DNA of 64,000 nt, from positions 248,001-312,000 of the forward strand of contig NZ_CP100757.1 of the NCBI RefSeq assembly GCF_024266705.1. The letters are read 5' to 3'. Position 1 is the stretch's first letter; each line of letters opens with the position of its first letter. The notes below the pieces were generated by a model. The model saw only the letters and a program-made list of their open reading frames with translations, did not search any database and was not told the origin of the DNA. Shown one piece after another: positions 5,236 to 27,436 of the stretch. The translations under genes were made by a program, and so were the position numbers. This DNA is from Natrinema gelatinilyticum. Lineage in GTDB: Archaea; Halobacteriota; Halobacteria; Halobacteriales; Natrialbaceae.

Positions 5236-6741
5236 TCAGTTCGTAGGGGAGTGAGATGGATTGTTGAGTCGCTCGTACATCTCATCTGGGAACGGGAGGC
5301 TCCCATAGATCGAGTATGGGCACTGGTCACGTCCGATGCAATACCGCTGCATATCATCATTCGCACAATTCATCGGCAGGGGGATCTCACCGCCGATGTC
5401 ATTGTCAAGTTCGTAGCGAATTTGGTACTCGGTGACCTCCTCATCGTACCAGGGCCACCGCGAGAACAGGTCTTTCAGGTTGCTTATGAATTCCCCCGTA
5501 CTCGCGTCCCGGTACTGGGGGAGCCACCTTACCATCCGCACCAGATTGAACAAATCCTTCCGAACAGGTTTTTTCTCTTGGAGGCGCTCGTCCATCGCCG
5601 CCATACAGGGTAGTTCGAGGAGGTCCTCGAGGACGTCGACGTGGAGTGGTCGAGCACCGTCACTGTACTCGGTGAGCGTGTACCGATTCAAGCGTGCGTT
5701 CTCGACGACGACACTTGCATGATCACGGTTCTGTGAGAGGATGGCTCCGAGGCTTCGCGGCGAGGAAATCGAATTACAGACGTGTTGCTCCCACGTTCGC
5801 TCCGGTTCGTACGCATCGAGCGCATTATAGAGCTCACGCGCCGTCTGGGTCTCCCCGAGTTGGGCAACGCCATCGTCTGCGGCGGTCACCGCATTGATGA
5901 TCGTCCGGAGATCGCGCTTCTGCCGACTCCAGTTTTCCCATACTCGGTGGGTCTGACCGGCCTGGAAAAACCGATCAATATGTTCCGTGATCGCTGACTC
6001 GTTCGCGGTGAGCCAACTGCGTTGTTCTGAGGTCAGCACTTCTTCTTGAACCGCAAGCAGCCGGCCAAAGGCGTCCTCTGTGTACTCGCGGTACTTCGCC
6101 ATGAAGTCAGAGACGGGTACATATAGATTGTTGTCAGCGACATGGGCCTGAATCTCGCCCTGCTGATTCTCATCACCGTCTGCACGGGCCAGGCACTTTC
6201 GTGAGGCGGCGACGAGCGGAATCTCGAGATAGTACCCCTCACCGAATTCGGGGTTGATCGTGACGTCCGTACAGACACGCCCTGGATGGACACCGTCCTC
6301 CACAGGGTCTTTCGCGTAGAGTGTTTCGGCGATCTCTTGATGGAGCGACCAGTCCTCGTACTGGCGGACGAGCGACCCGATATTGTTGACGTAGAGTTCA
6401 CGCAGATCGCCGAGAAGAGCAAGATGGCGGGGCGGTGTATCCTCGAGCTTGGGATGATCCATGATACAGACGGCGCCCAGAGTCGTGAGGACGGCCAACA
6501 CTCCTGGATCGTCGACATAGGGGCGCTCGGTTGCTACCTCTCGCGTGCTTGGCGCGAACGCGTCGGTGGTGAACCGCTCGACGTCTGCGAGTAGCTTCTC
6601 TGTCTGCTGTTCACCATCGACCGTCCAGCGGTTGTATCCGCGCTCGAACAGCTGTGTGATCTGGAACTCTCCCTTGTCTCGTGGGAGTGCTGCAACTCGA
6701 TACGCTGTGTATTTGTCGTCTGTGGGCGTATCTCGGCTCAT
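5236..6741 (-). CDS. PriL-like primase-associated protein with four-cysteine Fe-S-type C-terminal domain
   Basis: 501 residues. The C-terminal third resembles the iron-sulfur domain of the archaeal/eukaryotic primase large subunit: 'ELPCMAAMDERL' (Cys379), a basic helical segment, then 'MNCANDDMQRYCIGRDQCPYSIYG' with Cys459, Cys468 and Cys474. The spacing of one early Cys and three late Cys is that of the 4Fe-4S cluster in PriL. The N-terminal two thirds are not recognisable. The gene overlaps the PriS-like gene by 4 nt (6738-6741) and ends the T4SS operon, so the two probably form a heterodimeric primase carried by the element for replicating or re-synthesising the transferred strand. Cluster presence is inferred. 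Confidence 0.65.
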   Translation of the reverse strand: MSRDTPTDDKYTAYRVAALPRDKGEFQITQLFERGYNRWTVDGEQQTEKLLADVERFTTDAFAPSTREVATERPYVDDPGVLAVLTTLGAVCIMDHPKLEDTPPRHLALLGDLRELYVNNIGSLVRQYEDWSLHQEIAETLYAKDPVEDGVHPGRVCTDVTINPEFGEGYYLEIPLVAASRKCLARADGDENQQGEIQAHVADNNLYVPVSDFMAKYREYTEDAFGRLLAVQEEVLTSEQRSWLTANESAITEHIDRFFQAGQTHRVWENWSRQKRDLRTIINAVTAADDGVAQLGETQTARELYNALDAYEPERTWEQHVCNSISSPRSLGAILSQNRDHASVVVENARLNRYTLTEYSDGARPLHVDVLEDLLELPCMAAMDERLQEKKPVRKDLFNLVRMVRWLPQYRDASTGEFISNLKDLFSRWPWYDEEVTEYQIRYELDNDIGGEIPLPMNCANDDMQRYCIGRDQCPYSIYGSLPFPDEMYERLNNPSHSPTN

Positions 6742-7631
6742 GAGTCAAGGAAGTCAGGCGTCGCCTCGGTTCGGAAGTCGAATTCCGGATCATCGATGGG
6801 GTGGACGATACGCGAGACATCGGCGTGGAGCGAGTACGGCAGCCGCATCACTCGTCGGCGATCGGCTGTGACGACCGGATCAATTGGGATCTCGTACTCG
6901 TCAAGTAACAGGTCGTTGATCACCTCACGACTTTGCTCGTCGTAGTGGTGCTCGCGGTCCGTATCGAGCAGGTAGACGTGACACCCTTGCCCCGAGTAGA
7001 CCACCATCGTCTCGTCGGCTGTAAAGTCGTCCTCGAAGATCTCCTGCACTACAAAGCCGTACTCGAGGGCTTGCTCGATATCGTTGAAGGTGTAGGGATA
7101 CCCCTCGGGCGGGCTATCGAGAATTTCTGCGGCGCGAAGCTGTTCTGTCTCGACGTCGTCGGCCTCGCCGGTGATTGTTCCACTGGAAGCGCGCTGTGCG
7201 GCGATGTCTTTCGCGTCGATATCGACCGCTAAGATCCACGGCCGCTCCCAGTGATCGAGCGCGTAGTAGACCGCGTCGGGGCGTGGCTCCGGACGGTCAA
7301 GGAGGTCTGGATCGGCGAGTGCGTAGCCACTCCCCTGAGCAGGGTCGGAGCGTGCGGGATACTGGATAAATTCGACAAAGTCCTTCACTGAGCCGAACTG
7401 CTGGACAGTACGGTCATCGGAGTTGTGGGTTTGCCACGTATCGCGGCGGATGAACGTCCGGTCGGGAGCGTTCTGATTCCGGATCGGGTACGCTTCGCGG
7501 AAGGCGATGGCGTACTGCTTCGGTCCGTCGACCGTGATGAACGACGGGAGTGAATCAAGTAGGTCTGGAAATGTCTCTGTGTAGTAGGTGTGGAGTTCCT
7601 CGCAAGTTGCTTCTCGCCATGCTCCAGTCAT
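6738..7631 (-). CDS. PriS-like archaeo-eukaryotic primase (AEP) catalytic subunit
   Basis: 297 residues. The three AEP signatures are visible: 'ILAVDIDAKD' (Asp137, Asp139; metal-binding DxD), 'VYSGQGCHVYLLD' (residues 212-223; the SGxGxH-type motif) and 'DRRRVMRLPYSLHADVSR' (residues 257-274; Arg and Ser-Leu-His nucleotide-binding motif). It is shorter than the cellular PriS (about 380 residues), and the Zn-knuckle region is not evident. It is embedded between the VirD4-like gene (4-nt overlap) and the PriL-like gene (4-nt overlap). Priming on single-stranded conjugative DNA or at the element's own origin is the likely job. Confidence 0.75.
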   Translation of the reverse strand: MTGAWREATCEELHTYYTETFPDLLDSLPSFITVDGPKQYAIAFREAYPIRNQNAPDRTFIRRDTWQTHNSDDRTVQQFGSVKDFVEFIQYPARSDPAQGSGYALADPDLLDRPEPRPDAVYYALDHWERPWILAVDIDAKDIAAQRASSGTITGEADDVETEQLRAAEILDSPPEGYPYTFNDIEQALEYGFVVQEIFEDDFTADETMVVYSGQGCHVYLLDTDREHHYDEQSREVINDLLLDEYEIPIDPVVTADRRRVMRLPYSLHADVSRIVHPIDDPEFDFRTEATPDFLDS

Positions 7632-10600
7632 GACTCGTATTCGACCTCCGTTTTGAGAGTCCGGAACGTGTTCAGAGCCGTTAACCCAGGGATCTCGTAG
7701 CTACTGATGGCCACCCGAAGTGCGCTGACGGTCTGTTTCTGAGTCGCGTTCAGCGAGATATCGATCCGGCCAGCATCCATGAGCGCGTCGATCACGTCGA
7801 GGCTCAGCTCTCGATTCTCGAACGCCCAGACCGCCTTCGCGTCGACGCTCGCAAGCTTCTCGTAGTCTGAAATTGCGGCATCGAGATTATGGCTTTTCGT
7901 CTCCACCTCGCCGACCCAACAGAGGTCGTCCGCCGTGTCGAATCCTGCGATGTCGAAGACGGTCTCTGCGTCGTACTCGAAGTACCGCTCTGTCCGCTCG
8001 ACGTCCTCTTGGTGCTGAATAAGCCACGTATCGAGGAAGACGACGCCCACTTTGTGAGGCGTTTTCTCGCCAAGATCTCCGACTCCGAGACTGCAATCGA
8101 GCGTGCGATCGAGGAATGTTCGTCCAGCCGGTAACACAGTGTAGTACTTCTGGCGGAACGAGCGGTGCTGTTCGAGGAAGTCCTTTTCTTTGAGCGTCTC
8201 GATATCCAGATTGGAGAAGGACTTCTCGAAATCGGTCATGCTCTCTAAGAGTGAATACTCATCGAGTTGGTGGTTCATCGCATCCAGTACGAGACCGAGG
8301 AACGCCGCTTCGTCCCGTGTCACACCTTCAGCACGGAGTGTATCATCAGGGATGTCCGTCGTGGCCTCTCTGAAAAGCGTCGAATCCGACGTGGCCTGAT
8401 TCTGATCCTGTTCGTGTTTAGATGCCCCTTCTGTCCCTCCATTGGGAACTGCAGCAGCCTCGTCCGTGGATTCCTCGAGGAGCGCAAAGTCTTGGATCGT
8501 CACCTCGATGCCGTACTCCTCGGCGTATTCGGTAATGTTCCCGAGTCGGGTAAAGAGTTCACTGGTGGTTTCGGCTGTGTCACGTGCTCGGCGGGCGGCA
8601 ACGTAGACATCATCTTTCGACGCAAACTGGCAACATGCGCTGGCCTCTCGCTCCTCAGACGTGGGATACTCGGACCCACAGAGGGCACAGACGTAGGACT
8701 CCACACACCTGTCGTATCTCACGTGCTCGGGAAGCGACTCCCCACCCGACGTTTCCGTCGTCTCTCCCGAGTTCGTTGTGGCTTGGTCTACATCCGTGGA
8801 CTGAGGAGACGCAGTATCGTTCTGATGCTCTTGTGTTGCCGCCGCTGCCTGCTCGACAGAGGATTGTTGATGCTCCTCGGATGCCTGCGGGTCGTCTCCA
8901 GCAGCGCCGAACATGGGCACGCTCCCGATATCCCGCTCCTCATTCGGTGCAGTATTGGACAGAGTGTCGGCCGTCGCGGTCGCTGTCCCGTCATCCGTAG
9001 AGGCGCTTGTGTCATCGCTCGCGCCTTCTGCGCCGAAGAAGGGAGCATCCAAGAAGGGGCCACCGTTGGCCGCTCCACTCCCCGCTATGCTCTCACTCGT
9101 CGTCGCAGGCTCACCGACGGCGTCATCACCGACCTCGTTGAGCGTCTCCTGGACTTCCTCGCGGGCAAGCCGACTCGTCCGACCCGGAAGGCTACACTCG
9201 TATTGCGTCCGCCGCATCACACTAGGAATCTGCTGTTCTTCGAAGAGATGCAGGTCGTCGCCCGACAGTGGCGCGTCGCTCTCCGGATGACCGTCGGGGA
9301 TCGGCAGCGATGCAAGTGAGAACGGCACCGGGCCCGTCTCTCCGAAATGGGGGGTCGGCAACTGGACGATCCACTCCCCGGCCGGCAGGCGATTCACGCG
9401 ATTGCTGAACTCGGACGTACTCAGGTTCTCGTGGGCCATCGACTCGGCGAGCTTCGCATCCGTCGCGATGTTCCCGATGAGCTTCGTCTTGACGTTGTTC
9501 AGGATCTCCGTATACGCCCGGTCCGACGTGCTGTACTGCGCGACCTGCTCGGGATATTGGAGAATCAATCCGAGACTTACGCCGAACGCTCGTCCCTGAG
9601 GGATGAACTGCTCGTAAACCAGCGAGGACGTCGCGATTGCCGCTGCCTCCTCGATGATCATATTCACGATCGTGTCGTCTGCGTCACCCCCATGCTGACG
9701 GGAACCCCCGCTCAACGACCGACCCCCTCCACGACGACCCTGGACGGCGTCCCAGAGGTTACTCAACAGGATCATCGTCAGAGCGTGCTGGGATTCGGTG
9801 CGAAACTCCCCCAGGTCGAACAGGATGACTGCGTCCGTGTTGACGAACTCACGGAAGTCGAAGGCATTCCCGACGAATTCCTCGGCCTCGTCATCCCACT
9901 CGGGCACGTGGGTGAACATTTGGTAGAGGTGCTCATGCTCAACGAGCTTGTCGAGACGATTCGCCGCCGCGCCCATCGTCTGCTGGAACTGGCGGTCGTC
10001 CACCTGGCACTTCTGAACTAGCGACTGTTCGATATGCGAGTTCGCCTCGCAGAGTTCAGGAAGCGTCCGGTCCCGGCTCATCCGGAACACAGCCTGAATC
10101 AGGTCCTCGAGGCTGAACGCGTCCCGGCCGTACTCCCGGTCGAATAGCGCCTTGATCAGGAAGGTCAGAATCTCGTTGGCGACGTATGCCTGCTCGTGAC
10201 GCTCCTCGCCGAGGATGAGCCGCATGATCTCGTGGAAGTGTTCGACCTTGTCCTGGACGGCGTCCTCACGAGAGCGCCCCATCGCAAGCGCTGGACGAAT
10301 ATCGAAAAACGAGACCGCTGGCAGCATCTTCGGCGCGTTAAAATAGTAGACGTCGTCCAGAGTCCCGTGTTTCGCGTAGTGGGCGTGGAGATAGTGCTCG
10401 GCCATCCCGTCGCCTTTCCCATCAAGGAGAACGGTGGGGCCGTCGACGTGTTCGTGGAGTGAGAGCATTTCGGCCTGCACGGCTGTCGACTTCCCACTCC
10501 CTGTCGACGCCGCCCGAATGTAGCTCGTGGTCAGGAGATTCGGCGGAATACGAATCGGTTGGTCCAAGGATTCGTTCCGGTTCCGGAGGGGCTTCCCCAC

Positions 10601-11848
10601 CGCCATGCCCGCTCCGGCGAACACATCGAGAAGATCTGGGTCGGGCAACGGCAGTGGCTGGCGGAGTCGCTCCTTCCCGCGAGCACCACGTGACCCCTCG
10701 ATTGTCAGTGTCTGTGCGCTCGGCACCGCCACGAAGTTCGCGAGTTCATCCGCGTTCAGAATGAGCTGGGGCCGACGCTTCCCCATTGAGGACTGGTTGA
10801 ACGAACGGTTGACCAATCGGTTTAGCTCCTTCTGTGCGGGGTCTCGAATGTTGGTTAAGCTCTTCGTGACGCGGCTGCCGTCGAGGTGATAGAAATAGCC
10901 ATCTAAGTGATTGAACGCATTTGCGAGCGTTTCGATGTTGTTCGCCGCCTGTGGTTTGACTGCCTCAACAGGCTCGTTCGAGAGGACCGCGACCGTCCGA
11001 ACGTTCACGAGAAACGTCTGTGAAGGCCCCTTCTGGTCGATGAGTGCCTGTCGGGAGGCGACCTCGCCGCTGGCTGCACTCGACGTCTGCCGGGTACTCT
11101 CACCGACGTGTGGCGGATCACGGCCACGTCTCCGATCTCGAATCCGCTCTTCGTCGGCACCGTAGACCATATCGGCGAGACTGGTTCGTGCGGATTGGAG
11201 GGCACCGTCGTGCTTGGTCTCAATCTGCTTTTTGCGACCTTCAGCGAACTTCTGCCAGCTGCGGTACCGCATGAACAACACCTGCAACGCGGTGGGGGCT
11301 GTAGCCTCTGTAAGTCGTTCAACAGCCGTCGCTAGCGGAGCCCGTGCTGGGTCCTCCGAACTAGTGCCTTCCTCTTGGATCTGCGAGTACTGCTTGATCG
11401 GTGTCATCCAGTCGCGGCTCCGCTCGCCGACGCCGCTCCAGCGGGCTGCGATTGGTGTGTGCTCTGAGAGCAAGATTTCTCGTTTCTTGGTGTCGGTTTC
11501 CCCTGTTGAGTGGAGGGCTACCTCGTCTTCGTCTGGACGACAGAGTTCTACACGGAGGTCGACTGTCTCCTCGTAAATGTCGTAGCTTGCTGGGTACGCA
11601 GTCTGAAGTTCGGATTCGATCGTCGGCAGCAGTCCCTCATCGTCAACGCCGAGATAGAACCGAACCGGCGCGTCATCTCCTCGAGTAAGTACAAGGAATT
11701 CGAATATGGGCGGGCTCTTCCGCGGGTCGTATTTGACTCTCCACCCCGTTCGAAGCTTCCGCAATCCAGCAATTCTGGACACGATGTCGGCCGAATCGAC
11801 GCGTTCCCGCGCTGGTTCAATGCGGATGTAGCGACGAGTGTCAGTCAT
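7628..11848 (-). CDS. VirD4/TraG-like coupling ATPase with zinc-finger and nuclease-like C-terminal extension
   Basis: 1406 residues. Walker A is 'RAASTGSGKSTAVQAE' (about 445-460) and Walker B 'IVNMIIEEAAAIA' (about 727-739). An 'ILQYPEQVAQYS' segment after it resembles the sensor region of TraG/VirD4-type DNA pumps. Residues 900-1030 are a low-complexity acidic linker. A Cys cluster 'CVESYVCALCGSEYP...ACC' (about 1040-1065) looks like a zinc finger. The last ~160 residues contain 'FDIAGFDTADDLCWVGEVETKSHN' followed by 'ISDYEKLASVDAKAVWAFEN', which has the D...ExK arrangement of PD-(D/E)XK nucleases (Asp1299 or Asp1304, Glu1316, Lys1318). It probably delivers DNA to the T4SS channel. The nuclease-like end is an inference from motif only. 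Confidence 0.8.
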   Translation of the reverse strand: MTDTRRYIRIEPARERVDSADIVSRIAGLRKLRTGWRVKYDPRKSPPIFEFLVLTRGDDAPVRFYLGVDDEGLLPTIESELQTAYPASYDIYEETVDLRVELCRPDEDEVALHSTGETDTKKREILLSEHTPIAARWSGVGERSRDWMTPIKQYSQIQEEGTSSEDPARAPLATAVERLTEATAPTALQVLFMRYRSWQKFAEGRKKQIETKHDGALQSARTSLADMVYGADEERIRDRRRGRDPPHVGESTRQTSSAASGEVASRQALIDQKGPSQTFLVNVRTVAVLSNEPVEAVKPQAANNIETLANAFNHLDGYFYHLDGSRVTKSLTNIRDPAQKELNRLVNRSFNQSSMGKRRPQLILNADELANFVAVPSAQTLTIEGSRGARGKERLRQPLPLPDPDLLDVFAGAGMAVGKPLRNRNESLDQPIRIPPNLLTTSYIRAASTGSGKSTAVQAEMLSLHEHVDGPTVLLDGKGDGMAEHYLHAHYAKHGTLDDVYYFNAPKMLPAVSFFDIRPALAMGRSREDAVQDKVEHFHEIMRLILGEERHEQAYVANEILTFLIKALFDREYGRDAFSLEDLIQAVFRMSRDRTLPELCEANSHIEQSLVQKCQVDDRQFQQTMGAAANRLDKLVEHEHLYQMFTHVPEWDDEAEEFVGNAFDFREFVNTDAVILFDLGEFRTESQHALTMILLSNLWDAVQGRRGGGRSLSGGSRQHGGDADDTIVNMIIEEAAAIATSSLVYEQFIPQGRAFGVSLGLILQYPEQVAQYSTSDRAYTEILNNVKTKLIGNIATDAKLAESMAHENLSTSEFSNRVNRLPAGEWIVQLPTPHFGETGPVPFSLASLPIPDGHPESDAPLSGDDLHLFEEQQIPSVMRRTQYECSLPGRTSRLAREEVQETLNEVGDDAVGEPATTSESIAGSGAANGGPFLDAPFFGAEGASDDTSASTDDGTATATADTLSNTAPNEERDIGSVPMFGAAGDDPQASEEHQQSSVEQAAAATQEHQNDTASPQSTDVDQATTNSGETTETSGGESLPEHVRYDRCVESYVCALCGSEYPTSEEREASACCQFASKDDVYVAARRARDTAETTSELFTRLGNITEYAEEYGIEVTIQDFALLEESTDEAAAVPNGGTEGASKHEQDQNQATSDSTLFREATTDIPDDTLRAEGVTRDEAAFLGLVLDAMNHQLDEYSLLESMTDFEKSFSNLDIETLKEKDFLEQHRSFRQKYYTVLPAGRTFLDRTLDCSLGVGDLGEKTPHKVGVVFLDTWLIQHQEDVERTERYFEYDAETVFDIAGFDTADDLCWVGEVETKSHNLDAAISDYEKLASVDAKAVWAFENRELSLDVIDALMDAGRIDISLNATQKQTVSALRVAISSYEIPGLTALNTFRTLKTEVEYES

Positions 11849-14078
11849 CGGCCTCTTGGGGCGCTATCGGGACACCGGCCTCATCGAGCAGCGAGTCCGA
11901 AATGTCGTAGTCGTCGACACGATCCTCCTGGGCAAGATACTCGACGTCGCCGGCGTCGATGTAGTGCTGGTCAACGAGATACTCCCACGGGTCGAGGTCA
12001 TCGTCGAGGACGTGGATCTCGTAGTCGTTCACGTGGAGAGCAAGGGATTTCGTCCAGTCGTTGACGGCGAGCAGACACTCCGAGTAGCCGCCGTCTTCAC
12101 CGGTCTGCGCGGTTGCAATGTAGGTCTGCTCGGAGAGCGTAAGGTCGTGGAAGTCAATCATGGCGTCGCTGACCGACTCGTGGTGGAAGATCTGCTTGAT
12201 GTCACAGAGGTTGTAGACGTTCCGCGCCTTCTCGACGGCCTCCTCGGACTTTTTATCCGATTTCGCGATGAACTCATCGACTGTCTGGGAGATGAGTGTG
12301 ATCGCCGTGTTGAAATGGCGACTGTGCCGGATGAACAGGTCGATCATATCCGTCGTCGCCGCTCTTCGGAGGAGGTAGTGCGCCTCGTCGATGGTAACCT
12401 GGGTACGGCGATCGCTGCTCTGGGCGCGCTGGTAGATCCAGTCGAACATGACGTGCATGAACAGCGGCGCCTGGCCAGTGTCGGCGAACATCGACATGTC
12501 GATGACGACGAGGCGATTGTCGAGTTCGACGTTCGTGCGGCCGTTCAGGTTGTCGTTCTCACCGCCGTGCTGGAACGCTTCCAGGCCGAGGAGGAGTTGG
12601 TAGGCGTATTTCTCATCAATCTCTTTGAACCGCGTCTCCAGTTGTTCGATTTCCGGCCGAACGTGCTCTTCGTTTACATTCTTGTGAAGTTCGATGAACT
12701 CCGACGGTTGGGCGCCGTCCGCGAGTGCGTGCAGGATATCGAGGACGTCCTGCATCGTCGGACTCGCATTCTCGTGTGTCGCCAGATCGGCCGTGATACC
12801 GTATTTGAGATAGGCGAGGCGGACAGCCCGCCGGAGGATGCCCTCCTGTTCTTTGCTCAAGGACTGGTCGGCGATGGCCGAAAAGTGGGTGCGGAACAGC
12901 TCCATCACAGAGCGGAATTTCTTCTTAAACGGATCGTCAGCAACATCGTCGATGCCACGCCGGATTTCGAGTGGGTTGACCGTGTTCTGCCCGCCGAAGC
13001 GGATGACCTGGCCACCGAGGTCGTTTGCGAAGTCGACGAAATCCCCGAGCGGATCGAGGACGAGCATCTCGATCTCGGGATCCATCATCATGCGATGGTA
13101 CATCTCGTGCTTCTCGGCGAACGTCTTCCCCGACCCCATCTTTCCAGCAATCGCCTTCGAATATGACGAGAGCCGGTAGCGGTCCAACAGAACGGGCGTG
13201 TTCGTCCCGTCGAACCCATAGAAAACGCCCTCCGGATCGGCCACGGCTGGCTCGATAAAGGGGAACATCGTCCCGACGGCTGTCTCCTGCATGAGCTGGG
13301 TGGCCTTGAGGGGGTCATCACCCAGCGGGGCGAGTGCGTCTTGGGATTCTATCTGGCGTTTGTCGAGCGTGACCGCTCTGGCATTCGCGGCGCCAAGGGT
13401 TTCGACGATGCGTTCGGTCGCTTCATCGAGATCTTGCTCGGTATCGGCGATGATCTCGATGTAGATCGCGAAGTCGAAGAGTTTCGTCTCACCGAGGATG
13501 ATGTCCCAGATGAGTTCCTTGACCATGTCACGGTCGGCCTCAGCCTCGTGGGTGTCGGTCTGGTTCTTCTCGTATTTCTTGTGCAGGCGGGCTCGAAGCT
13601 GTGTGAGGCGTTTCTGGAGTTTCCGGAGGACTGATCCTGTGTCGCGGGGTTCGATGTGTTGGGTAACTCGGACGTGGTCGTTCGTCGTGTAAAGGTTCTC
13701 GAGCCATCCCAGCGGGACACGCTCGGGATAGCCGTGGATAGTGAGGGTGCGAACGAACTGGTCATTGCGGACCATATATCCCGACTCGAAGAGGTTCGAT
13801 ACCTCCTGGAGCTGGCGCGGGGCTATAACATCCCGATCGGCAAGCGCCTGTTCGGTCTCGTCCTGCATGACGCCAAGCCGGAGTTCCCCGTCGTCGACGT
13901 CTTCGACTTCGAGCAGATACTCGGCTTGCTCGCGGATGTTCTCCTTCGTGAGGTCGTCCCCGTTCGCTTCGAGAATCTCGGCAGCGCGGTCGAACGTCTC
14001 ATCGTCGATGTCATCGATGCTCGGCTCGCTACTCCCCACAGGAAGCCACGAGCGAACGCGGGCGAATCGCCTCGTCAT
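11841..14078 (-). CDS. VirB4-family T4SS ATPase
   Basis: 745 residues. Walker A 'AIAGKMGSGKTFAEKHE' lies at about 309-325 and Walker B 'TQVTIDEAHYLL' at about 559-570. 'MLVLDPLGDFVDFANDLGGQVIRFGG' and 'PLFMHVMFDWIYQRAQ' are typical of VirB4/TraC-type ATPases. The N-terminal 250 residues match the VirB4 N-domain in style ('FVRTLTIHGYPERVPLGWLENL' and a coiled-coil stretch). VirB4 energises pilus and channel assembly at the cytoplasmic membrane. The gene overlaps its upstream neighbour by 4 nt and the VirD4-like gene by 8 nt, placing it firmly in the operon. Confidence 0.9.
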   Translation of the reverse strand: MTRRFARVRSWLPVGSSEPSIDDIDDETFDRAAEILEANGDDLTKENIREQAEYLLEVEDVDDGELRLGVMQDETEQALADRDVIAPRQLQEVSNLFESGYMVRNDQFVRTLTIHGYPERVPLGWLENLYTTNDHVRVTQHIEPRDTGSVLRKLQKRLTQLRARLHKKYEKNQTDTHEAEADRDMVKELIWDIILGETKLFDFAIYIEIIADTEQDLDEATERIVETLGAANARAVTLDKRQIESQDALAPLGDDPLKATQLMQETAVGTMFPFIEPAVADPEGVFYGFDGTNTPVLLDRYRLSSYSKAIAGKMGSGKTFAEKHEMYHRMMMDPEIEMLVLDPLGDFVDFANDLGGQVIRFGGQNTVNPLEIRRGIDDVADDPFKKKFRSVMELFRTHFSAIADQSLSKEQEGILRRAVRLAYLKYGITADLATHENASPTMQDVLDILHALADGAQPSEFIELHKNVNEEHVRPEIEQLETRFKEIDEKYAYQLLLGLEAFQHGGENDNLNGRTNVELDNRLVVIDMSMFADTGQAPLFMHVMFDWIYQRAQSSDRRTQVTIDEAHYLLRRAATTDMIDLFIRHSRHFNTAITLISQTVDEFIAKSDKKSEEAVEKARNVYNLCDIKQIFHHESVSDAMIDFHDLTLSEQTYIATAQTGEDGGYSECLLAVNDWTKSLALHVNDYEIHVLDDDLDPWEYLVDQHYIDAGDVEYLAQEDRVDDYDISDSLLDEAGVPIAPQEADD

Positions 14079-15139
14079 CGGTGCTCACCCTCTGTTTTCG
14101 TCGCGTGCGAAAATTTCTCGAACTGTGGATCGACGTGGTTGTAGTAGTGATAGAGAATCTCCATCGTCTCCTGGCGGTCGGTGACACGTTCGATGGAGAC
14201 GTCCGTCCGGCCGAGTTTGTTCGTGATCCGGCGCTGGCGCTGCCGGACCTCGCGAATACAAAGCTCGGTACGTGCGGCCTCGTCGGAGTCACCCAGTGAC
14301 GTTCGATCGACTATTCGCGAGTAGATAGTGCCGATGACCGGGAGGGTACCGAGCTGACTCAACACGCTTCCCGTATCGAGGTCCTTGTGGACGTGGTCGG
14401 CGTCGACGCGAGTGACGATGTAGAAATCGCGTTGTTTGAGGTCCTCGTCCTCGATATTCGTGTTGGCCCACTGGATGTAGAATTTGCGCCCGTACTGGAG
14501 GATGGGAGTCTGGCCGCGTGAGGTCATGCTCGCACCTGCTTTGTAGAAGCGCTCGAGATGCCCCGTTAGATCGAAGGGCTTCGGATAGCAGGGCACCGCA
14601 ACGCTAGACTCCAGCGACATCAGGAACGACATGTACGCGCTCATCGTGTCGCGTTTTGCCTGATCACTGAGTGAAAGCCAGTTCTGCGGATGGACTTTTA
14701 GCAGGCCAATGTAGCTGCTCTCGTCGACGGCGATGCCATCGTCACGGACGTAATCGAACCCGAGTGTCTCTTGAGCAGTCGTTGAGCCGCCAAGACGATT
14801 CTCGAGGTCGAAGTGATCCCGAGCCCGGGCTCGTTTGCGAGCAGTCGGGAGATTGGTGTCAATATCGTCGAGGAAGGTATTGAGTGCACGGAGGACGTCG
14901 AGATCTGACTCGGGTACTGTCGACGCCACTCCGTTTTGAGTCGCGGCTGTCGGATGGCTATCGTTCTGTGAATCGGAACCTGGTGCTTGGGTGGAATCGT
15001 CCGCTGGCGAAATCGTCGTCGATTGTGTAGTTGGAGTATCGGATGGGGAGCTCCCGTTCGTGGTCTCGTCCTCATCGGGGTCTCTCTCTTCGTCAGAAAC
15101 GGTTTCATCGGTGATTTCATCAGAGGTTGCAGGGCCCAT
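14075..15139 (-). CDS. T4SS-associated protein, possibly VirB4-N-domain-like
   Basis: 354 residues. The first 100 are a disordered, acidic Ser/Thr/Asp-rich tail. The rest contains 'LGFDYVRDDGIAVDESSYIGLLKVHPQNWLSLSDQAKRDTMSAYMSFLMSLESSVAVPCYPKPFDLTGHLERFY', a pattern seen in proteins encoded between PrgI-like and VirB4-like genes and reminiscent of the N-terminal substrate domain of TrsE/TraC-type ATPases. There is no Walker motif and no convincing membrane segment, although 'LPVIGTIYSRIVD' is mildly hydrophobic. Co-translation with VirB4 (4-nt overlap) suggests a partner in the same complex. The precise role is unknown. Confidence 0.6.
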   Translation of the reverse strand: MGPATSDEITDETVSDEERDPDEDETTNGSSPSDTPTTQSTTISPADDSTQAPGSDSQNDSHPTAATQNGVASTVPESDLDVLRALNTFLDDIDTNLPTARKRARARDHFDLENRLGGSTTAQETLGFDYVRDDGIAVDESSYIGLLKVHPQNWLSLSDQAKRDTMSAYMSFLMSLESSVAVPCYPKPFDLTGHLERFYKAGASMTSRGQTPILQYGRKFYIQWANTNIEDEDLKQRDFYIVTRVDADHVHKDLDTGSVLSQLGTLPVIGTIYSRIVDRTSLGDSDEAARTELCIREVRQRQRRITNKLGRTDVSIERVTDRQETMEILYHYYNHVDPQFEKFSHATKTEGEHR

Positions 15140-15145
15140 GTGAGA

Positions 15146-15532
15146 TCACCTCGATTTGGTCTCCGGTTCTGCGTCGATCGCCTCGATGTCGAGACCGTTC
15201 TGTCGGACACCGATGACGTCCTGGATCACCGGCGTCTCTGCGTCGGGCCTGGTGCGGCGATTGTAGTAGGCATTCGACGAGAGATAGTAGTCGACCGCAG
15301 CACGGGCGTAGCTGATTGGTCGCTGACCAGCGGGTGCAACGAGGAGGATGAGAATGCCGAGTGCGAGTCCGATTCCGCCAGCGATCATGAACACTGTACC
15401 GGTGAACCCGAGGCTCTGAACGATACCGAGGGCGAGAAATGGGATGATGAGAACCTCGCCAACTTCGCGAGCGGTGAGGCCATAGACTACCTTTGTATTG
15501 ATGATTCGGCCAGCGATCGGGAACGTCTCCAT
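15146..15532 (-). CDS. PrgI/VirB3-like small membrane protein of the T4SS
   Basis: 128 residues. Two closely spaced hydrophobic segments ('GEVLIIPFLALGIVQSLG' and 'GTVFMIAGGIGLALGILILLVA', about residues 25-70) sit near the N-terminus, followed by a soluble tail with 'RPISYARAAVDYYLSSNAYYNRR'. This layout, and the position directly ahead of the VirB4 module, match PrgI/VirB3-type inner-membrane components. It is the first gene of the operon that runs down to 5236; the AT-rich stretch upstream is the probable promoter. Confidence 0.7.
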   Translation of the reverse strand: METFPIAGRIINTKVVYGLTAREVGEVLIIPFLALGIVQSLGFTGTVFMIAGGIGLALGILILLVAPAGQRPISYARAAVDYYLSSNAYYNRRTRPDAETPVIQDVIGVRQNGLDIEAIDAEPETKSR

Positions 15533-15831
15533 GCCGTTATTTTACCAAAGCAAATTATTAATAGTTTTCATATTGGAGATATTTACAATATATTTGAATA
15601 CTACAAATTATCTTCCAGATCGTTGTTTTATTGATGAGACTACTTGGATCACTCTGTGTAGATGTAAGTGAATGATAAACTATGCACCCATTCTAGTCAA
15701 CTATCATACTATTTCGGAAGGTTCTAGAAGTTCGTGCACCCAATATGCGACATTAAAAAATATTTGGAGCGTGTATTTTCATTTCCGAATGATAATTTCT
15801 CTCACTCATCCAGCGTGTTTGACCCGGAACC
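15533..15831 (-). promoter_or_regulatory. AT-rich intergenic region, probable promoter of the T4SS/primase operon
   Basis: This 299-nt stretch is much more AT-rich than the genes around it. On the minus strand, ACTATTAATAATTTGC lies about 30 nt ahead of the ATG at 15532 and could supply a TATA box close to a short leader or leaderless start. No gene is seen here. The exact start site is not determined. Confidence 0.4.
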
Positions 15832-16302: not shown

Positions 16303-16750
16303 AGCATATACCGGTGTCTCCTAAACAAATAAAAAACTATCGTCGATTAATGAAGGAACAGTTCGACAGTCTCTTACCAAGTCACGAGTCTTCAAGACAT
16401 CTATCTGTAGCATTTGAAACGCAATAGACTCTCATCATAGAACCTAATCTAAAGGTTTGACCGGACAGATTAGGGTCATCGAAAATAAGAGTCGTTGACA
16501 CTTTCCCAATTGGTGACTAACAACTCGACCTGGTCGTTGATCAAGTCCTCGACAGTGTCTATCCTTTTGGGTGCAGTGCCATCTTCGACCTCTTCTTGCA
16601 CAAGGGACCTCGTGGCAAGGAAGTATCACGGGGACGGGGGGAGATCCGAGGCATTCTCATTGTAATATTGTAAATGTGCTTGCTGGTCATTCAGAGATTG
16701 AAAACCAGCATTGCCTCTATATCTCATGGCTACCTTTCCATTCGTCAAGG
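16303..16750. other. Intergenic region, no firm gene
   Basis: No recognised gene. On the minus strand between about 16600 and 16479 a short open frame reads 'VQEEVEDGTAPKRIDTVEDLINDQVELL...', which looks protein-like (acidic, heptad-like) but has no start beyond a GTG and no family match; it may be the end of a decayed gene. The rest holds nothing notable. Confidence 0.35.
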
Positions 16751-20870: not shown

Positions 20871-22238
20871 TCATTCGGTGGTGGCGTCAGGGAACGAGTT
20901 GTGAAGGTCGGTGAGTGTGATCGCCGACGCGTCGCGTTCCGCTGCCCGCATCGCTGCATCGTCGACAATCCCAATGATATCGGCACTGTTCAGTCCGTCT
21001 GCTTGAGCCGCCGCCTGGCGATAGTCTCCATCATCCAAGCTGGTCGGCCGGTCGCGGAGGTGGACACGGAAGATGGCCTCCCGTGCGTCTTGATCGGGAC
21101 GGTCGATTTTGTATTGCTGATCAAAACGCCCCCGACGAGTCGCAGCTTCATCGAGGAGATCAGCACGGTTCGTCGCTGCAATTACGAGAAAATTCGGATC
21201 CTCCTCATCCAAATGCGCGAGGAATTCGTTGACGACCTGGGCGTGTTCACGGTGGAGGTCTTTTCCGCGCCCGGCGAGCAGCGCGTCGATTTCGTCGATG
21301 AAAATGACGCATCTATCGAACTGTTCGGCCTCGTCGAAGAGCCGGTTGACCTGTTCGGTCGATTCGTTGATCCATCGCGATTTGATATCCCCGGCGGACA
21401 ACTCGAGATACGGGTGACCGAGTTCACCGGCGATTGCTCGAGCGAACAGGGTCTTTCCGGTTCCCGGTGGGCCATAGAGGAGAATTCCGTTTGGTGGTGA
21501 AACGTTGAATCGCTCGTATGCGTCGTCGATTCGAGTCAGGGGTCTCATGATGGAACGCATGATTTCTTTTTTTAGGTCATCTTGGCCACCAACATCACTA
21601 AACTCGACATCTGGTGCAGGTTCCCAACCATACTCGAGAACAGTACGCTGCTTGGGTAAATCATCGCTGTACTGAGGTGCTCTATTCTTAGTTTGGCCTC
21701 CCGTTCCGTAAGTAGACGAACCCGGTCCAGTAGACTGTGTCTGCCCTGATTTCGAGGATTTTTCTTCGATGTTGTCGGTAGCAGTACCGAGACCCGTTGA
21801 TATCATCAATGGGATGCACGCAAGCCAGCTGAGCCCCATAAGCCAATAACTGTCGAACATGGACGCAACTCGAAGTGGTGCGAGGGTATTAGCAAGTGAC
21901 GTCCAGCTGGATTCCCAAATCGGGAGGAACCATACAGCCGTTAATACGGCTGATCCGATAGCAATTCCAAAAATCCAATCAATATCTGCACTTTTTGTAT
22001 TCTCGCCATGCATCGGATAAACTGCTCCAGTCAACAGGGCAGCAGTAAATGAAGGGAACATCCAGATAGCAGGAACACCCAGAAGTGCGGCTAATCCTCT
22101 AACCGAAGAGGGAGTATTAATTACGACCCAGACGATTCCAAGCGGGGCCAGTACATAGTTCGCAGTAAAGAGACTCGTTGAGAGAAGTTCAACGATGATT
22201 CCCCTCAGACCATCTCCAATTGTCCGTGTTTCAGGCAT
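20871..22238 (-). CDS. Membrane-anchored AAA+ ATPase (FtsH/Cdc48-type ATPase domain)
   Basis: About 455 residues from ATG 22238, which lies 1 nt after the stop of the VirB6-like gene; ATG 22271 is possible. The N-terminal 190 residues include about four hydrophobic segments. The AAA+ domain shows 'LLYGPPGTGKTLFARAIAGEL' (Walker A), 'CVIFIDEIDALLAGRG' (Walker B), 'VIAATNRADLLDEAATRRGRFDQQ' (sensor 1 and arginine fingers) and a C-terminal lid ('SADIIGIVDDAAMRAAERDA'). No protease HExxH follows, so it is not FtsH itself. Within a T4SS block it may remodel or extract membrane components. Such AAA genes beside archaeal conjugation genes have no assigned function that I know of. Confidence 0.8.
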   Translation of the reverse strand: MPETRTIGDGLRGIIVELLSTSLFTANYVLAPLGIVWVVINTPSSVRGLAALLGVPAIWMFPSFTAALLTGAVYPMHGENTKSADIDWIFGIAIGSAVLTAVWFLPIWESSWTSLANTLAPLRVASMFDSYWLMGLSWLACIPLMISTGLGTATDNIEEKSSKSGQTQSTGPGSSTYGTGGQTKNRAPQYSDDLPKQRTVLEYGWEPAPDVEFSDVGGQDDLKKEIMRSIMRPLTRIDDAYERFNVSPPNGILLYGPPGTGKTLFARAIAGELGHPYLELSAGDIKSRWINESTEQVNRLFDEAEQFDRCVIFIDEIDALLAGRGKDLHREHAQVVNEFLAHLDEEDPNFLVIAATNRADLLDEAATRRGRFDQQYKIDRPDQDAREAIFRVHLRDRPTSLDDGDYRQAAAQADGLNSADIIGIVDDAAMRAAERDASAITLTDLHNSFPDATTE

Positions 22239-22239
22239 A

Positions 22240-23721
22240 TCATTTGGACTGATTATTGTCGGCGGGTTCACTCGACCAGTCGCTTATCATCTGTTGGTTA
22301 GATCCAGTCTCTGTCGATGTATCGATAGCAGGATTTTCGCGGTATCTCTCAAGGCCAGCTTCCGCCCAGTCAACAGGTGATTGGTGTAGATTTCTAGTCG
22401 CGTAGTCAGCACCGGCTTTAACATCTTGAGCTGCACGCTTTCCGCTCTTTTTCCCTTGAGATCCTACCTTCATGCTCGTGTTGACAGTCTCTTCTGAGAA
22501 GACTGTCGTTGCTGTACTTCCAGCCGCATTCCTTGCACGACCCGCTGTAGATCCGGCTTTTCTGACGGTCCTACTCCCTACTCCGCCGGTTTTCCGATCA
22601 GCATATCCTAACCCCTTCGACGTTCCATACTTTGCCTGCTCGAGCAGGGCAGTACGCGTAGACTTCCCGCTCGAGTGGCTCGTCGAGGAACCCTGCGACT
22701 GCGATTTACTTTTGCCACCTTGCCGACCAGAGATCCGCCGCGGCGACATCCCAGCCATTGCCGCTGATTTGATGCCGACGAATGCAGGTGCGACGAGTCC
22801 AATCAACCAGAATAAGTACGCCTCGAGGACTTCCCCGAACCCAGGATCAGCAGTTTGCTGGGCCTGGGCCGCTGTTGCCCCTTGGCCGGCCAGATCTGCG
22901 TACGCACCAGCTGCTGCAGCACCAGTCTGTAGGAGTCCAGCCATTACGATTCCCGCCAACAACATGTAGGCCGTCGCCCGAAGGGCGGTTTTCGCGATCT
23001 CCGACGTGTAACGGAGCGGACCGAAGTCCAGGAACAACATCGTGCCGAGGACGGGGAGCAGGATGAACGTTGCGTTGAACAAGAACTCCCGTAAGACGAA
23101 GACACCAAGCGCGAGGAGGATGCCTGCCACGGACACCATGCTCAGGATGAGTGCACCGATGATCACGCCTGCCCCAGACGAAGCAGCTCCGTCGAGGCTG
23201 GATTTCAGGACTTCTGGCCCGAATGCGGCGCCGTAGTCGGCCGTGAAGACATGGCGAATGATCGCGTTCGTCAGCAGGAGGCCAAAGTGCATGATCTGAC
23301 GGGCGACAGCAACGAAGATGATCACCTTCAGCGTCTTCCAGACGAGCATGAAGTTCGTCACCTCATGCTGATCTGCAAACGGTTTTGTCGCAATACCCGC
23401 CATGAACATGATGACGAGCAGTTGCGGGAAGATATCCAGATTATGCTGGAATGCCGCCTGCATCGCGGGGTCAGTATAGGGACTATCGAAGATGATGAAC
23501 GTTCGCATTCCGTTGGCGATGAGTTCACCGATAAAACTGAGAACACCGGTCAGAATGTAGGTGAAGAAGTTGGCAATCCAGCCGGTAAAGGCGGCTGCGA
23601 TTAGCATCCTGGTGTCGCCAGTTGACGGGGTTGCGCTACTATGCTGGATCAACGCCGGTGTAACAGGATTGATGCTGTTCTGGACAACGTCGATTGGGGC
23701 GTGGAACAGTAAATCGGTCAT
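22240..23721 (-). CDS. VirB6/TrbL-like polytopic membrane protein of the T4SS
   Basis: 493 residues. At least six hydrophobic segments lie between residues 40 and 320 (for example 'FTGWIANFFTYILTGVLSFIGELIANGM', 'IIGALILSMVSVAGILLALGVFVLREFLFNATFILLPVLGTMLFL', 'ATAYMLLAGIVMAGLLQTG' and 'YLFWLIGLVAPAFVGIKSAAMAGM'). A basic, Ser/Gly-rich tail of about 160 residues follows, a layout typical of VirB6/TrbL-type channel proteins. It lies between the surface protein and the AAA+ ATPase and should form part of the membrane channel. Confidence 0.75.
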   Translation of the reverse strand: MTDLLFHAPIDVVQNSINPVTPALIQHSSATPSTGDTRMLIAAAFTGWIANFFTYILTGVLSFIGELIANGMRTFIIFDSPYTDPAMQAAFQHNLDIFPQLLVIMFMAGIATKPFADQHEVTNFMLVWKTLKVIIFVAVARQIMHFGLLLTNAIIRHVFTADYGAAFGPEVLKSSLDGAASSGAGVIIGALILSMVSVAGILLALGVFVLREFLFNATFILLPVLGTMLFLDFGPLRYTSEIAKTALRATAYMLLAGIVMAGLLQTGAAAAGAYADLAGQGATAAQAQQTADPGFGEVLEAYLFWLIGLVAPAFVGIKSAAMAGMSPRRISGRQGGKSKSQSQGSSTSHSSGKSTRTALLEQAKYGTSKGLGYADRKTGGVGSRTVRKAGSTAGRARNAAGSTATTVFSEETVNTSMKVGSQGKKSGKRAAQDVKAGADYATRNLHQSPVDWAEAGLERYRENPAIDTSTETGSNQQMISDWSSEPADNNQSK

Positions 23722-25073
23722 CGTGTTCTGAGTTCAGTATTGTGCGCGAGTCTGGTGCGTGAGCTTCAGTGCTGAAACCTCTACGAGTGGGGTCTGAGTT
23801 CTATCCTGTACCCCTCCGCATGTACGCGAACGGTACGAAGAAGATGAGAAACGCCGCTACCGAAACCAGCGCGCCTGCGAGGCTCGTCAGTAGCTGGTAG
23901 ATGTCGAATGGATCTGGCTGGAACGCGATCCTCGCCTGCGCTGGACCATAGTAGATGTTCTGGGAAATGTGAGCCGCTCCCGGGAACGAGACTGTGACGT
24001 AGAGATCACGCCGCTCAACAACGACTGTGCCGTCGGCGTTCGTCGTCACTCGTCCTTGTGCGGCTCCTCTCAGCCAGAGTGTTCTATCAGCCAGCGGTTG
24101 GCCGGTGGTGCTATCGGAGAACTGGATTCTGGCGTGGGTTTCGTTAATGGCCCTCACAGAGAGGTTCGAATTCCGCTCCTGAACGGTTTGTGTGGTCAAC
24201 TGAATCGAGTCGTTGTGGACATCGCGAATCTCCGCGATCGGCTGATCAACGTTCGTAATGACGATGGTCGTGTATCCACGAGGCGGTACCGAGGTGAGTT
24301 TCACATGCTGATCGAGTGTGGCCGCCTTGCCAGGCATATCGAAGCCGTTGAGTCTCACAATCTCCGGGGGAGATGTAGCGCTCGTTTGCTGTGTCCATCG
24401 GATCGTGGGCTGACGACTTCGGGCAGTGAGCCGCAGTTCGAGAACGTTCGGGAAGGAAACGGTCCGCTGGTGGCCGTTTGTGACTGTGCGTTTCTGGGGG
24501 ACCGCCTGATTGTTTCCACTCGTACTGTTGGATGACCGCGAGAAGGTGATGTTTGACTCCGTGGGCAGTCGACGACCACGTGTCGCGTTCGTGTACCGGC
24601 GCTGTGAATAGACACCCCAGACGTTCTGGACACGTCCGGCCGAGTCCTCAAGTTGCGCATAGCTCCAGAGTCGCCGGTCAGACAGCGTCTTCGGACCTTC
24701 GAACGAAAGGATAATTCGGTCAATACCCTCCTCGGAGCGGACGATCGATTGCGTGACGCTGAGATCTTGATTGGTGGTGACAACTACACGAGCGCTATCC
24801 TGCACCGTGTGCGAAAGGGTGCGCGTCTTATCGGCAGTCGTATTTGATAGTTGCCAGCCACCACCTACGCGAACGTAGGTTTTCGTCGAGACGGCAACGG
24901 TCGAGTTGATCGTCGCGCGGACCTGCATCGTCGTTGGCTCGGTTGCACTTGCGCCGGCGTACTCCAGTTGACCCGGCGATGAATCGCTACTCCACGTCTG
25001 GTTACCGATTCGAACACTTCGGTCGACCTGTTGATCGAGGAGCGTGTACGAGAGACATGTCTTGGTCTTGTTG

Positions 25074-25083
25074 GTGGTGGTAC
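25074..25083. repeat. 10-bp target site duplication, left copy (GTGGTGGTAC)
   Basis: Direct repeat immediately left of the IS4-type element, identical to the copy at 26476-26485. The perfect match indicates a fairly recent insertion. Confidence 0.85.
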
Positions 25084-26475
25084 CATTGGTGTTCGGTTAA
25101 ACACTGGATCACCTCGTGTAGGCTTCAGCCACTCGTTCACTAAGTAAGAGGCGTGATTTCTCTGGTTGACGAGCGTCACGAAACAGCAACTCCGGCAGGT
25201 TCGGCGGTGGATGCCCGAACGACTGGGCCAACTCTTCGAGGATGAGCTGGGCGAGAGACCTGAAGGTCCTCGCCCAGCGTTCCCGAGGGAACACCGTCTC
25301 AGGAAACAGCTCCTGAAATATACCGAGCAAGGCTCTGCTGACCACGAGCGTCAGCAGAGCCGCCACAACCAGCAGTTCCACGATTGCTGGATCGCTTGTC
25401 TGGAACTTCTCCAGCCCATACAGCGATTTTAACTCCCGGAATAGCAATTCCACTTCCCACCGCAACCCATACAGCGCCGCAACTTGCCTCGGAGTGAACT
25501 CATCGGGCAGGTTCGTAACGTACAGATGGTAGTCGTCGGTGTCCTCGTTGCGGACACCGACGACGCGAAACTCCATCGTGTCGGTTGACTGTTTCCCTGC
25601 GTACGGCCGTCGCTTGAATGTGATCTCCACAGTCACGTCTACGATCTCGCGTGTGAGGTCGCCCAGAACGTCCTGGAGGCGACGGCCTGGCAAGGAAATG
25701 GCGCGCCCGCGCCATTTCCGCCGCTCCCCGACGATCAACGGGTTCGCGTTTGACTTCAGCCGCGTCAAAAAGAACCCGCCATTTTCCTCGATCAACGCGA
25801 ACCGGCGGAAACTGTAGAACCCGAGATCGAACAGTAACAACCGGTCTCGCAGCCAGCTCCCTGTGCGGAGCTGGCTGCTCTCTTGGGTGCGTTCGTCGGT
25901 GAGCTGGAACTGTTCGAGGCTCTGAGTAGTAGCGTTATGGACGAGGTGAAGCTTCGCGCCGGACTGATCCGAGTGAGTCGCTGGAAACTCGCTAAGGAGC
26001 CGATGCAACCGGAAAACGGTTGCATCGGCGATCAGCACATCACGAAATAACTCGAACTGTGGTGCGATCGTGTGGGGAACCGCGACCTCGAGAGCGTGCT
26101 CGAGGAGGTCGCTCAACAGGGCACCAAGTGCTGGTGTGAACCGGTCATAGAAACTGGAGCGAGCAACAGTCTGGTTAGTCGCTGCGGAGTAGGCCCGCTG
26201 AAATCCGGCGATCGTGCGGGCTTCGCCGTCGACGGCGAAGCCCATGATGAGCGTCCAGACGAGCATCGTGATGTCGATTGTCCGGTGGCGTTGGACGACA
26301 TCGCGCTCTCGCGCGATGTCTTCGATACGTTCGGCTGGAAACAGGGAAGTCAGCCGCCGTCGTATGAGGTCCGGGGAGAGCGTATTGAACACATTCTCTC
26401 CCCACGCGGTCTACAACGATAGCTTCGTCAATCGAGCGCAGTCTCTCGGTTTCTTGTCTTAACCGAACACGGATG
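25084..26475. mobile_element. IS4-family element, ISH8-like, intact
   Basis: 1392 bp. The ends are CATTGGTGTTCGGTTAA (left) and, on the complement, CATCCGTGTTCGGTTAA (right): 17-bp terminal inverted repeats with two mismatches. Perfect 10-bp duplications of GTGGTGGTAC flank the element. It contains one full-length transposase gene. Size, ends and duplication length fit the ISH8 group of IS4. Confidence 0.85.
25109..26392 (-). CDS. IS4-family (ISH8-like) transposase
   Basis: 427 residues, intact. Catalytic features of the DDE domain are visible: 'VLIADATVFRLH' (first Asp), 'RLLLFDLGFYSF' (second Asp) and 'YGLRWEVELLFRELKSLYGLE' (the Y-(2)-R-(3)-E-(6)-K signature with the catalytic Glu). The gene fills the element between its inverted repeats, and no frameshift is seen, so this copy should be able to transpose. 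Confidence 0.9.
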   Translation of the reverse strand: MFNTLSPDLIRRRLTSLFPAERIEDIARERDVVQRHRTIDITMLVWTLIMGFAVDGEARTIAGFQRAYSAATNQTVARSSFYDRFTPALGALLSDLLEHALEVAVPHTIAPQFELFRDVLIADATVFRLHRLLSEFPATHSDQSGAKLHLVHNATTQSLEQFQLTDERTQESSQLRTGSWLRDRLLLFDLGFYSFRRFALIEENGGFFLTRLKSNANPLIVGERRKWRGRAISLPGRRLQDVLGDLTREIVDVTVEITFKRRPYAGKQSTDTMEFRVVGVRNEDTDDYHLYVTNLPDEFTPRQVAALYGLRWEVELLFRELKSLYGLEKFQTSDPAIVELLVVAALLTLVVSRALLGIFQELFPETVFPRERWARTFRSLAQLILEELAQSFGHPPPNLPELLFRDARQPEKSRLLLSERVAEAYTR

Positions 26476-26485
26476 GTGGTGGTAC
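26476..26485. repeat. 10-bp target site duplication, right copy (GTGGTGGTAC)
   Basis: Right-hand copy of the duplication made by the IS4-type insertion, identical to 25074-25083. Confidence 0.85.
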
Positions 26486-27100
26486 ACGTCCGGTTCGGAA
26501 GGTGCGTCGAGTAATCGAACTGAGTAAGGACTGTCCCATTCCGGGGAATTAGCAGCCGATCACCCGTGGTTTCAGATTGCGTGCCTTCTCGAGCGCCAGT
26601 TTGGGTGTGTACACCGTCCGTTGTGCCGAGAATCGTGATATGGGCGTCTTTAACGACTGTTCCGTTCGAGCGCTGTGAGTCAGGAAGCCAGAGACTCGTC
26701 GAGTCGTTTCGCTGAATCAAATTAAGCTGCGAGAAACGGTACTCGCTGAGTGTCTGCTGGTTCGATCCAACGCGATAGGGCGGTTTTGTCGTCGCGTAAG
26801 AGAAATCGCGTGCCCTGCTGATGTTAGACAGAGAGGCATTCTCTGTGCGGATAATGTCACTGATGGTTGGGAGCACAAACGGAGGGAGCTTCCCGGTAGC
26901 TGGATCACGGTCATCGGAGATGAAGGCGCGAGTTGCGCCGTTTGGTGCAGTACCGGTCGGTGTTGTAACTGTACCCACCACGGGGAGCGCGAGGAGGGCG
27001 AAAATCACAACCCCGATGAGTGGACGTCTATCCGTCATAGATTAGCGTGATGGAGCCGATTGAGCAACGGCTTGCTCTCGGGTTGTCTGAGCACACTGCT

Positions 27101-27436
27101 TTAGGGAAGGAGTGGGACGAGCATCCCTGGGGCGAGGTTTTCGAAGAGGGTAACGAACACAGTGTAGCTGACCGAGAGAACGATCATTCCAGCACCGCCC
27201 CACATGCCACGCCAGCCCCACTGAGCGCGGTCGGCGTTGCGCCGGGAGACGAACCAGGCTGCAGCCCCGAGGAGAAAGACGATCACGCCAATCTGACCGA
27301 GGGTTGTCGCGACGAACTCTTCGATCTGCGTAAGTGAGTTATTGATTTCACTCTGTTGGGCAGTAGCGATGCCTGCGCTTGCGGTGAACGCTGTCAAGCC
27401 GATCACGAACCGTGTGGCACCTTTCACAGTATCCAT
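27101..27436 (-). CDS. VirB2/TrbC-like pilin-type small membrane protein
   Basis: 111 residues. The N-terminus 'RFVIGLTAFTASAGIATAQQ' looks like a signal peptide with AxA-type cleavage. Two hydrophobic segments follow ('LGQIGVIVFLLGAAAWFVS' and 'GAGMIVLSVSYTVFVTLFENLAPG') around a short basic loop. Length and topology fit VirB2/TrbC conjugative pilins. It is the first gene of the T4SS block that continues with the split surface protein (62 nt downstream). Confidence 0.6.
   Translation of the reverse strand: MDTVKGATRFVIGLTAFTASAGIATAQQSEINNSLTQIEEFVATTLGQIGVIVFLLGAAAWFVSRRNADRAQWGWRGMWGGAGMIVLSVSYTVFVTLFENLAPGMLVPLLP

Follow-up and report, generated by a model that had tools for sequence, protein, structure and literature searches.

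A divergent PriS-type primase and its PriL-like partner encoded behind the VirD4 ATPase of haloarchaeal plasmids: a proposed conjugal primase

The window, which is the whole stretch of 64,000 nucleotides that was analysed, belongs to a 1.6-Mb replicon of a haloarchaeal genome. Its minus strand carries six consecutive genes running from position 15532 to position 5236, and all of their open reading frames proved intact, at the coordinates that had been given in an earlier, sequence-only reading. The stretch 5236-15532 is only a part of a T4SS locus, the upstream half of which was located at about 20874-27436. The genes of both parts, from the start of the locus onward, are as follows:

27104..27436, minus strand: 111-aa protein with two transmembrane segments, start of the T4SS locus (77% identity to the gene of locus L197)
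23804..26948, minus strand: interrupted counterpart of a 602-aa protein with a membrane anchor (tblastn matches to 21-176 and 184-602)
22243..23721, minus strand: 493-aa protein with about five transmembrane segments, VirB6-like by position and topology only (86% identity to the gene of locus L198)
20871..22271, minus strand: upstream gene of the T4SS locus, "ATP-binding protein" in relatives (tblastn, 66% to the gene of locus L197)
15146..15532, minus strand: 128-aa membrane protein with about two transmembrane segments, first gene of the block (hydropathy; same place in close relatives)
14075..15139, minus strand: 354-aa conserved operon protein (same place in close relatives)
11841..14078, minus strand: VirB4-type ATPase, 745 aa (NCBIfam VirB4-like families, DUF87, TraG P-loop)
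7628..11848, minus strand: VirD4/HerA-type ATPase, 1406 aa, with a long conserved C-terminal extension of unknown fold (Walker motifs, profile)
6738..7631, minus strand: PriS-type catalytic primase subunit, 297 aa (profile, model fold, catalytic residues)
5236..6741, minus strand: PriL-like subunit, 501 aa, NF038197 (775.8 bits; hhalign against the host PriL, fold, Cys conservation)

The genes of the block had been described as all linked by 4-nt overlaps. Such overlaps were found at three of the five junctions, namely between the genes of the 354-aa protein and VirB4 (14078/14075), VirD4 and PriS (7631/7628), and PriS and the 501-aa protein (6741/6738), while the VirB4-VirD4 junction is an 8-nt overlap and 6 nt lie between the end of the 128-aa gene and the start of the 354-aa gene. 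Family searches gave no match for the 354-aa protein, and for the 128-aa protein a match to PrgI that was below significance.

In relatives, further membrane genes lie directly upstream of the block, and their homologues in the window are displaced to about 20874-27436. At locus L197, for example, the counterpart of the gene at 20871..22271 sits 77 bp before the 128-aa gene, and in the window a 5.3-kb insertion (15533-20870) parts the upstream T4SS genes from it. By eye, the insertion contains genes for a cupin-like protein, a 484-aa membrane protein, and a DUF1254-like protein. In addition, an insertion-sequence-like stretch (about 25058-26480, with the open reading frame 25109-26392) interrupts the homologue of the 602-aa gene. 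The primase genes themselves are undamaged despite the interruption of the locus; since that locus is interrupted, however, the window's own copy of the primase may no longer be active in transfer.

Several other features of the surroundings were recorded. The DUF1254-like secreted protein of the insertion (18898-20028) is very similar to a second one encoded about 60 kb away (L130:14212-15342), which suggests a segmental duplication. Near the operon, at 207-1151, lies a gene for an ArdC-like anti-restriction/metallopeptidase protein, of a kind known from conjugative plasmids. A second, unrelated archaeo-eukaryotic primase (AEP), which is NrS-1-like (PF22763; DNA primase in PHROG), is encoded downstream of the operon at 2168-3469, and a stretch resembling part of its C-terminus recurs at 58787-59161.

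Both ATPases of the block were assigned by profile searches and conserved motifs. The 745-aa protein matched NCBIfam VirB4-like families with E-values of 5.6e-65 and 4.3e-56 and exceeded the cut-offs of DUF87 and the TraG P-loop family; related plasmids are typed as MPF_T in PLSDB. In the 1406-aa protein, the Walker A (TGSGKS) and Walker B (IIEEA) motifs are conserved in the alignment, and its profile matched a DNA helicase (E 3e-7) and, weakly, HerA and DUF87. The assignment to VirD4 is thus a prediction from the conserved P-loop motifs, the similarity to the HerA group, and the position of the gene. The C-terminal domain of this protein (7631-8350) has a conserved GE-x-E motif and invariant D/K residues and belongs to no known family; searches of Pfam and the PDB with it gave no match. 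It is possibly a degenerate nuclease fold. A role of this domain as a relaxase substitute was considered because of the resemblance of GEVETKS to PD-(D/E)xK and was rejected, since the Lys is not conserved.

The 297-aa protein contains the complete set of AEP motifs: D137-I-D139, S213-G-Q-G-C-H218, and D251..R260..R263-LPYSLH269. The motif residues (DxD, SxGxxH, and R..LP.SLH) are conserved in at least 73 of 76 aligned relatives. A profile of its family matched archaeal PriS in the PDB with an E-value of 1.5e-12. An AlphaFold2 model (pLDDT 80) showed the best fold agreement with Pyrococcus PriS 1g71 (Z 20.9, rmsd 2.7, 219 residues), followed by human and yeast Pri1 (Z up to 17.6); the values were no higher than 11.7 for LigD-type domains and no higher than 8.9 for S-2L PrimPol and CAPP. 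The alignments used for structure prediction left out the rows from plasmid records. The protein scored under the curated cut-offs of both cellular models (25.0 bits against 26.8 for PF01896, and 37.7 against 143.5 for TIGR00335), which indicates a divergent branch of PriS and not the cellular equivalog. Profile and model thus firmly place the predicted protein in PriS proper, as a divergent branch of it.

The second primase gene encodes a full-length member of NCBIfam NF038197, "primase-associated protein" (775.8 bits; cut-off 100). According to the model and the alignments, the protein consists of a PriL-NTD-like fold (residues 10-250), a winged-helix domain (about 271-363, with winged-helix domains as the matches in the fold comparison), and a four-Cys domain (371-495). 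Cys 379, 459, 468, and 474 are conserved in 80, 79, 80, and 80 of 80 relatives, respectively. Their spacing is C-x79-C-x8-C-x5-C in 65 of these and C-x84-C-x8-C-x5-C in another 12 (77/80), compared with C-x65-71-C-x8-C-x6-C in 17 of 19 host PriL proteins. Neither the AEP motifs nor this four-Cys pattern is there by chance. The description of the last two genes of the operon as an AEP primase with intact motifs and a partner with the Cys spacing of the PriL Fe-S domain was therefore borne out by the reading frames and by the near-invariance of the residues. A 4Fe-4S cluster is predicted for the 501-aa protein.

A PriL profile search of the Cys-rich domain, which the sequence-only reading had named as one test that could refute its proposal, came out in favour of PriL. 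In hhalign, the C-terminal domain matched the host PriL with an E-value of 9.3e-7 and a score of 48.6. The best of 30 column-shuffled decoys scored 15.8-22, less than half the real PriL score, and with a reversed decoy included no control exceeded 22 over all tests. The deeper alignments A3, A5, and A9 gave PriL E-values of 2.5e-4 to 2.9e-4 at full length, weaker than A1, and for the C-terminal domain A5 gave 4.8e-5; these signals were still above the decoys. When the PDB was searched with the profile of the entire 501-aa family, no sequence match to PriL appeared, the single sequence had no match to Pfam PF04104 (PriL) at E-values up to 1, and hhalign detected no sequence signal to PriL in the N-terminal 250 or so residues. 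That N-terminal part is well modelled, and VIA-align placed PriL NTDs, archaeal and eukaryotic entries among them, at the top, although with modest Z values of about 8 (5of3_E, Z 8.2, 179 aligned residues, rmsd 4.7; 1zt2_D, 7.8; 4rr2_D, 7.3). Foldseek ranked the same entries first, with a best E-value of only 0.03. The last 50 residues of the model, into which the predicted Fe-S pocket falls, were of low confidence. Taken together, these data make homology of the 501-aa protein to PriL very likely, and formation of a heterodimer with the PriS protein likely.

The gene order was surveyed across haloarchaeal T4SS loci, as had been proposed earlier. The 501-aa family was found on 85 haloarchaeal plasmids and PriS on 77, while the VirD4 homologue was present on 144; the pair thus marks a subset of these systems. 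Within the phylum, 15 of 295 genomes passed the NF038197 family cut-off. The genome collection contained 69 haloarchaeal loci with 65 full-length copies of the 501-aa family. An intact PriS gene was located directly upstream in 61 of the 65, VirD4 preceded PriS in all 61, and VirB4 was the next gene further upstream in 53 of 56 assessable loci. The arrangement had been called unusual, a view that its spread over 77-85 haloarchaeal plasmids and the existing NCBI name of the family do not support. Across loci, VirB4 is often divergent (E about 1e-49), whereas VirD4 (about 1e-290), PriS (about 1e-124), and the PriL-like protein (about 1e-200) remain close. This suggests that VirD4-PriS-PriL forms one module, with VirB4 and the small genes being exchangeable. 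In the Halobacterium salinarum plasmids L005 (pNRC200) and L068, inserted DNA separates the PriS and PriL-like genes.

Outside the haloarchaeal plasmids, a genome of another family of the phylum (G177) encodes two PriS-PriL-like pairs (L195:5834-8034 and L126:8125-10456). Both lack the second Cys and have a new Cys, the relocated fourth one, in CPxCW, and no VirD4 of the operon's family lies beside them. The first pair is near genes for ParA and topoisomerase IA, with a HerA-like ATPase about 4 kb away; no T4SS gene was recognised near the second. Moreover, in one haloarchaeal genome a PriL-like gene stands alone (L127), with no PriS or VirD4 gene within 14 kb of it.

The host has its own PriS and PriL as separate chromosomal genes, so the operon pair is an additional primase. 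The mobile PriS is shorter than the host one (297 against 391 aa), and the 501-aa protein, compared with the 362-aa host PriL, has its two PriL-like parts on either side of a winged-helix domain. On the PriS tree, the mobile versions, including those of G177, formed one clade apart from all host PriS (98/91; long branches). The pair thus appears to be old, to be read with caution given the long branches, and recent capture from the host was rejected on the same grounds. A viral origin or carriage was also rejected, since the pair had no match in phage records or viral contigs and the viral fold library gave nothing significant. A family of PriS-like proteins of about 280 aa with extra Cys residues is encoded on chromosomes of other families of the phylum (L191-L194, L196); these form a separate chromosomal clade in the tree, and no PriL-like neighbour was seen in the five regions whose open reading frames were read.

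The statement that no relaxase is present held for three Pfam families and for plasmid typing, and extends that far. Profile searches for PF03432, PF08751, and PF03389, with controls that matched, found none in the genome, and MOB-suite typed 85 of 85 related plasmids as non-mobilizable; the rolling-circle Rep family PF01446 had no match, but its controls were equally silent. This absence agrees with reports on archaeal conjugative elements without a recognisable relaxase (PMC6563490, PMC9905601, PMC12857230). We consider it highly improbable that the primase itself replaces the relaxase step, with strand-displacing synthesis from primers made at the VirD4 motor freeing the transferred strand without nicking.

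Transfer of single strands calls for primers in the recipient and, in the donor, for synthesis that replaces the strand given away, and bacterial plasmids use dedicated primases for this purpose, some of which are fused to the relaxase. We propose, with somewhat better than even confidence, that the pair is the dedicated conjugal primase of a haloarchaeal T4SS. The direct basis is the identity of the subunits, the conserved gene order, and the intact catalytic and Cys residues. The last two genes encode the catalytic PriS and the large PriL-like subunit of an archaeal heterodimeric primase in a version carried by mobile elements, and both are produced along with the coupling ATPase. In this reading, VirD4 would drive single-stranded plasmid DNA, and the complex, with its putative Fe-S cluster, would be held near VirD4, through a presumed contact, or sent along with the DNA, laying primers for the complementary strand in the recipient and/or the donor. 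DNA binding or positioning is the probable task of the winged-helix domain that lies between the PriL-like ones. What speaks most strongly for a role alongside the coupling protein is the cohesion of VirD4-PriS-PriL, as judged from sequence comparison. Counting against the proposal are the G177 pairs and the L127 copy, all without VirD4 of the operon's family nearby, as well as the modest N-terminal Z values, the low-confidence last 50 residues, and the missing second Cys in distant members.

Those distant copies bear on the main rival, according to which the pair is a vegetative replication primase of the plasmid, active in origin-proximal or lagging-strand priming, that resides in the T4SS operon without a transfer role. 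In its favour, the two subunits belong to the replicative PriS/PriL type, ParA and topoisomerase IA are encoded close to one distant pair, and the pair persists even when the transfer genes have been damaged, the window being an example. However, its linkage to VirD4 is near-absolute in haloarchaea (61/61 loci with PriS), the three genes stay together when VirB4 is exchanged, and the hosts supply their own PriS and PriL, which leaves this explanation unlikely, with perhaps one chance in several. Less likely still is that the pair primes or fills gaps for the repair or recombination of T4SS-imported DNA, outside the transfer step. A role in double-strand-break repair has been reported for archaeal PriSL (PMC12019639) and the winged-helix domain would suit DNA binding, but no repair genes accompany the pair in the operon. 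The 501-aa protein might also be a DNA-binding accessory with an acquired PriL-like Cys domain, in which case there would be no heterodimer and PriS would act alone. The lack of sequence similarity to PriL in its N-terminal half, the lone copy without PriS, and the NCBI name, merely "primase-associated protein," are in line with such a protein; the PriL NTDs of archaea and eukaryotes as best matches of the N-terminal model, and the adjoining PriS gene in 61 of 65 loci and also in the distant genome, make it very improbable. The conjugal primase is the most economical reading.

Both single-stranded and double-stranded transfer have been proposed for archaeal conjugation (PMC6563490, PMC9905601, PMC12857230). 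DNA processing in this type of conjugation may differ from that in bacteria. A divergent plasmid-borne primase behind the transfer motors suggests a dedicated primase, hence single-stranded DNA, in archaeal plasmid transfer, and its constant place beside the coupling protein on dozens of haloarchaeal plasmids points the same way. The pair was already known to NCBI annotators as "DNA primase" and "primase-associated protein" (NF038197), without a function. We found no paper describing the pair or linking it to PriL or conjugation, although an earlier mention in Iyer 2005 is possible. The present analysis adds the PriL homology and the T4SS link to what is stated for the NF038197 family, and proposes a function for it.

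Among known systems, the pair resembles archaeal PriS/PriL (PF01896/PF04104) in the PriS fold and motifs with R-LP-SLH, the probable PriL-NTD-like fold, the two separate genes, and the four-Cys C-terminal domain of nearly equal spacing. It differs in its location on mobile elements beside VirD4 and in matching neither the PriL model of Pfam nor, at the curated cut-offs, the PriS models. The NF038197 family, with its "DNA primase" neighbour, includes the 501-aa protein, but its name gives neither a function nor a tie to PriL. MobA-RepB' of RSF1010/R1162, TraC of RP4, and Sog of ColIb are conjugal primases of bacterial plasmids. The pair would have in common with them the dedication to transferred DNA, the conjugal role being proposed here, and the encoding together with transfer genes; the bacterial primases occur with a relaxase and are no heterodimers of the PriS/PriL kind. 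Mobilization of R1162 needs the primase linked to the relaxase MobA (Henderson and Meyer, as cited in PMC12857230). Kazlauskas et al. 2018 (PMC5862659) described PriL as nearly exclusive to chromosomal primases, with mobile AEPs using PriCT domains and PolpTN2 as a fused exception; the pair is a further exception to this statement. PolpTN2 of the Thermococcus plasmid pTN2 (PMC3973330, PMC5862659) is likewise a mobile AEP and combines a winged helix with an Fe-S domain resembling that of PriL; however, it is one fused polypeptide of the PrimPol-PV1 group, whereas the primase described here has two subunits, belongs to the PriS proper group, and is tied to a T4SS.
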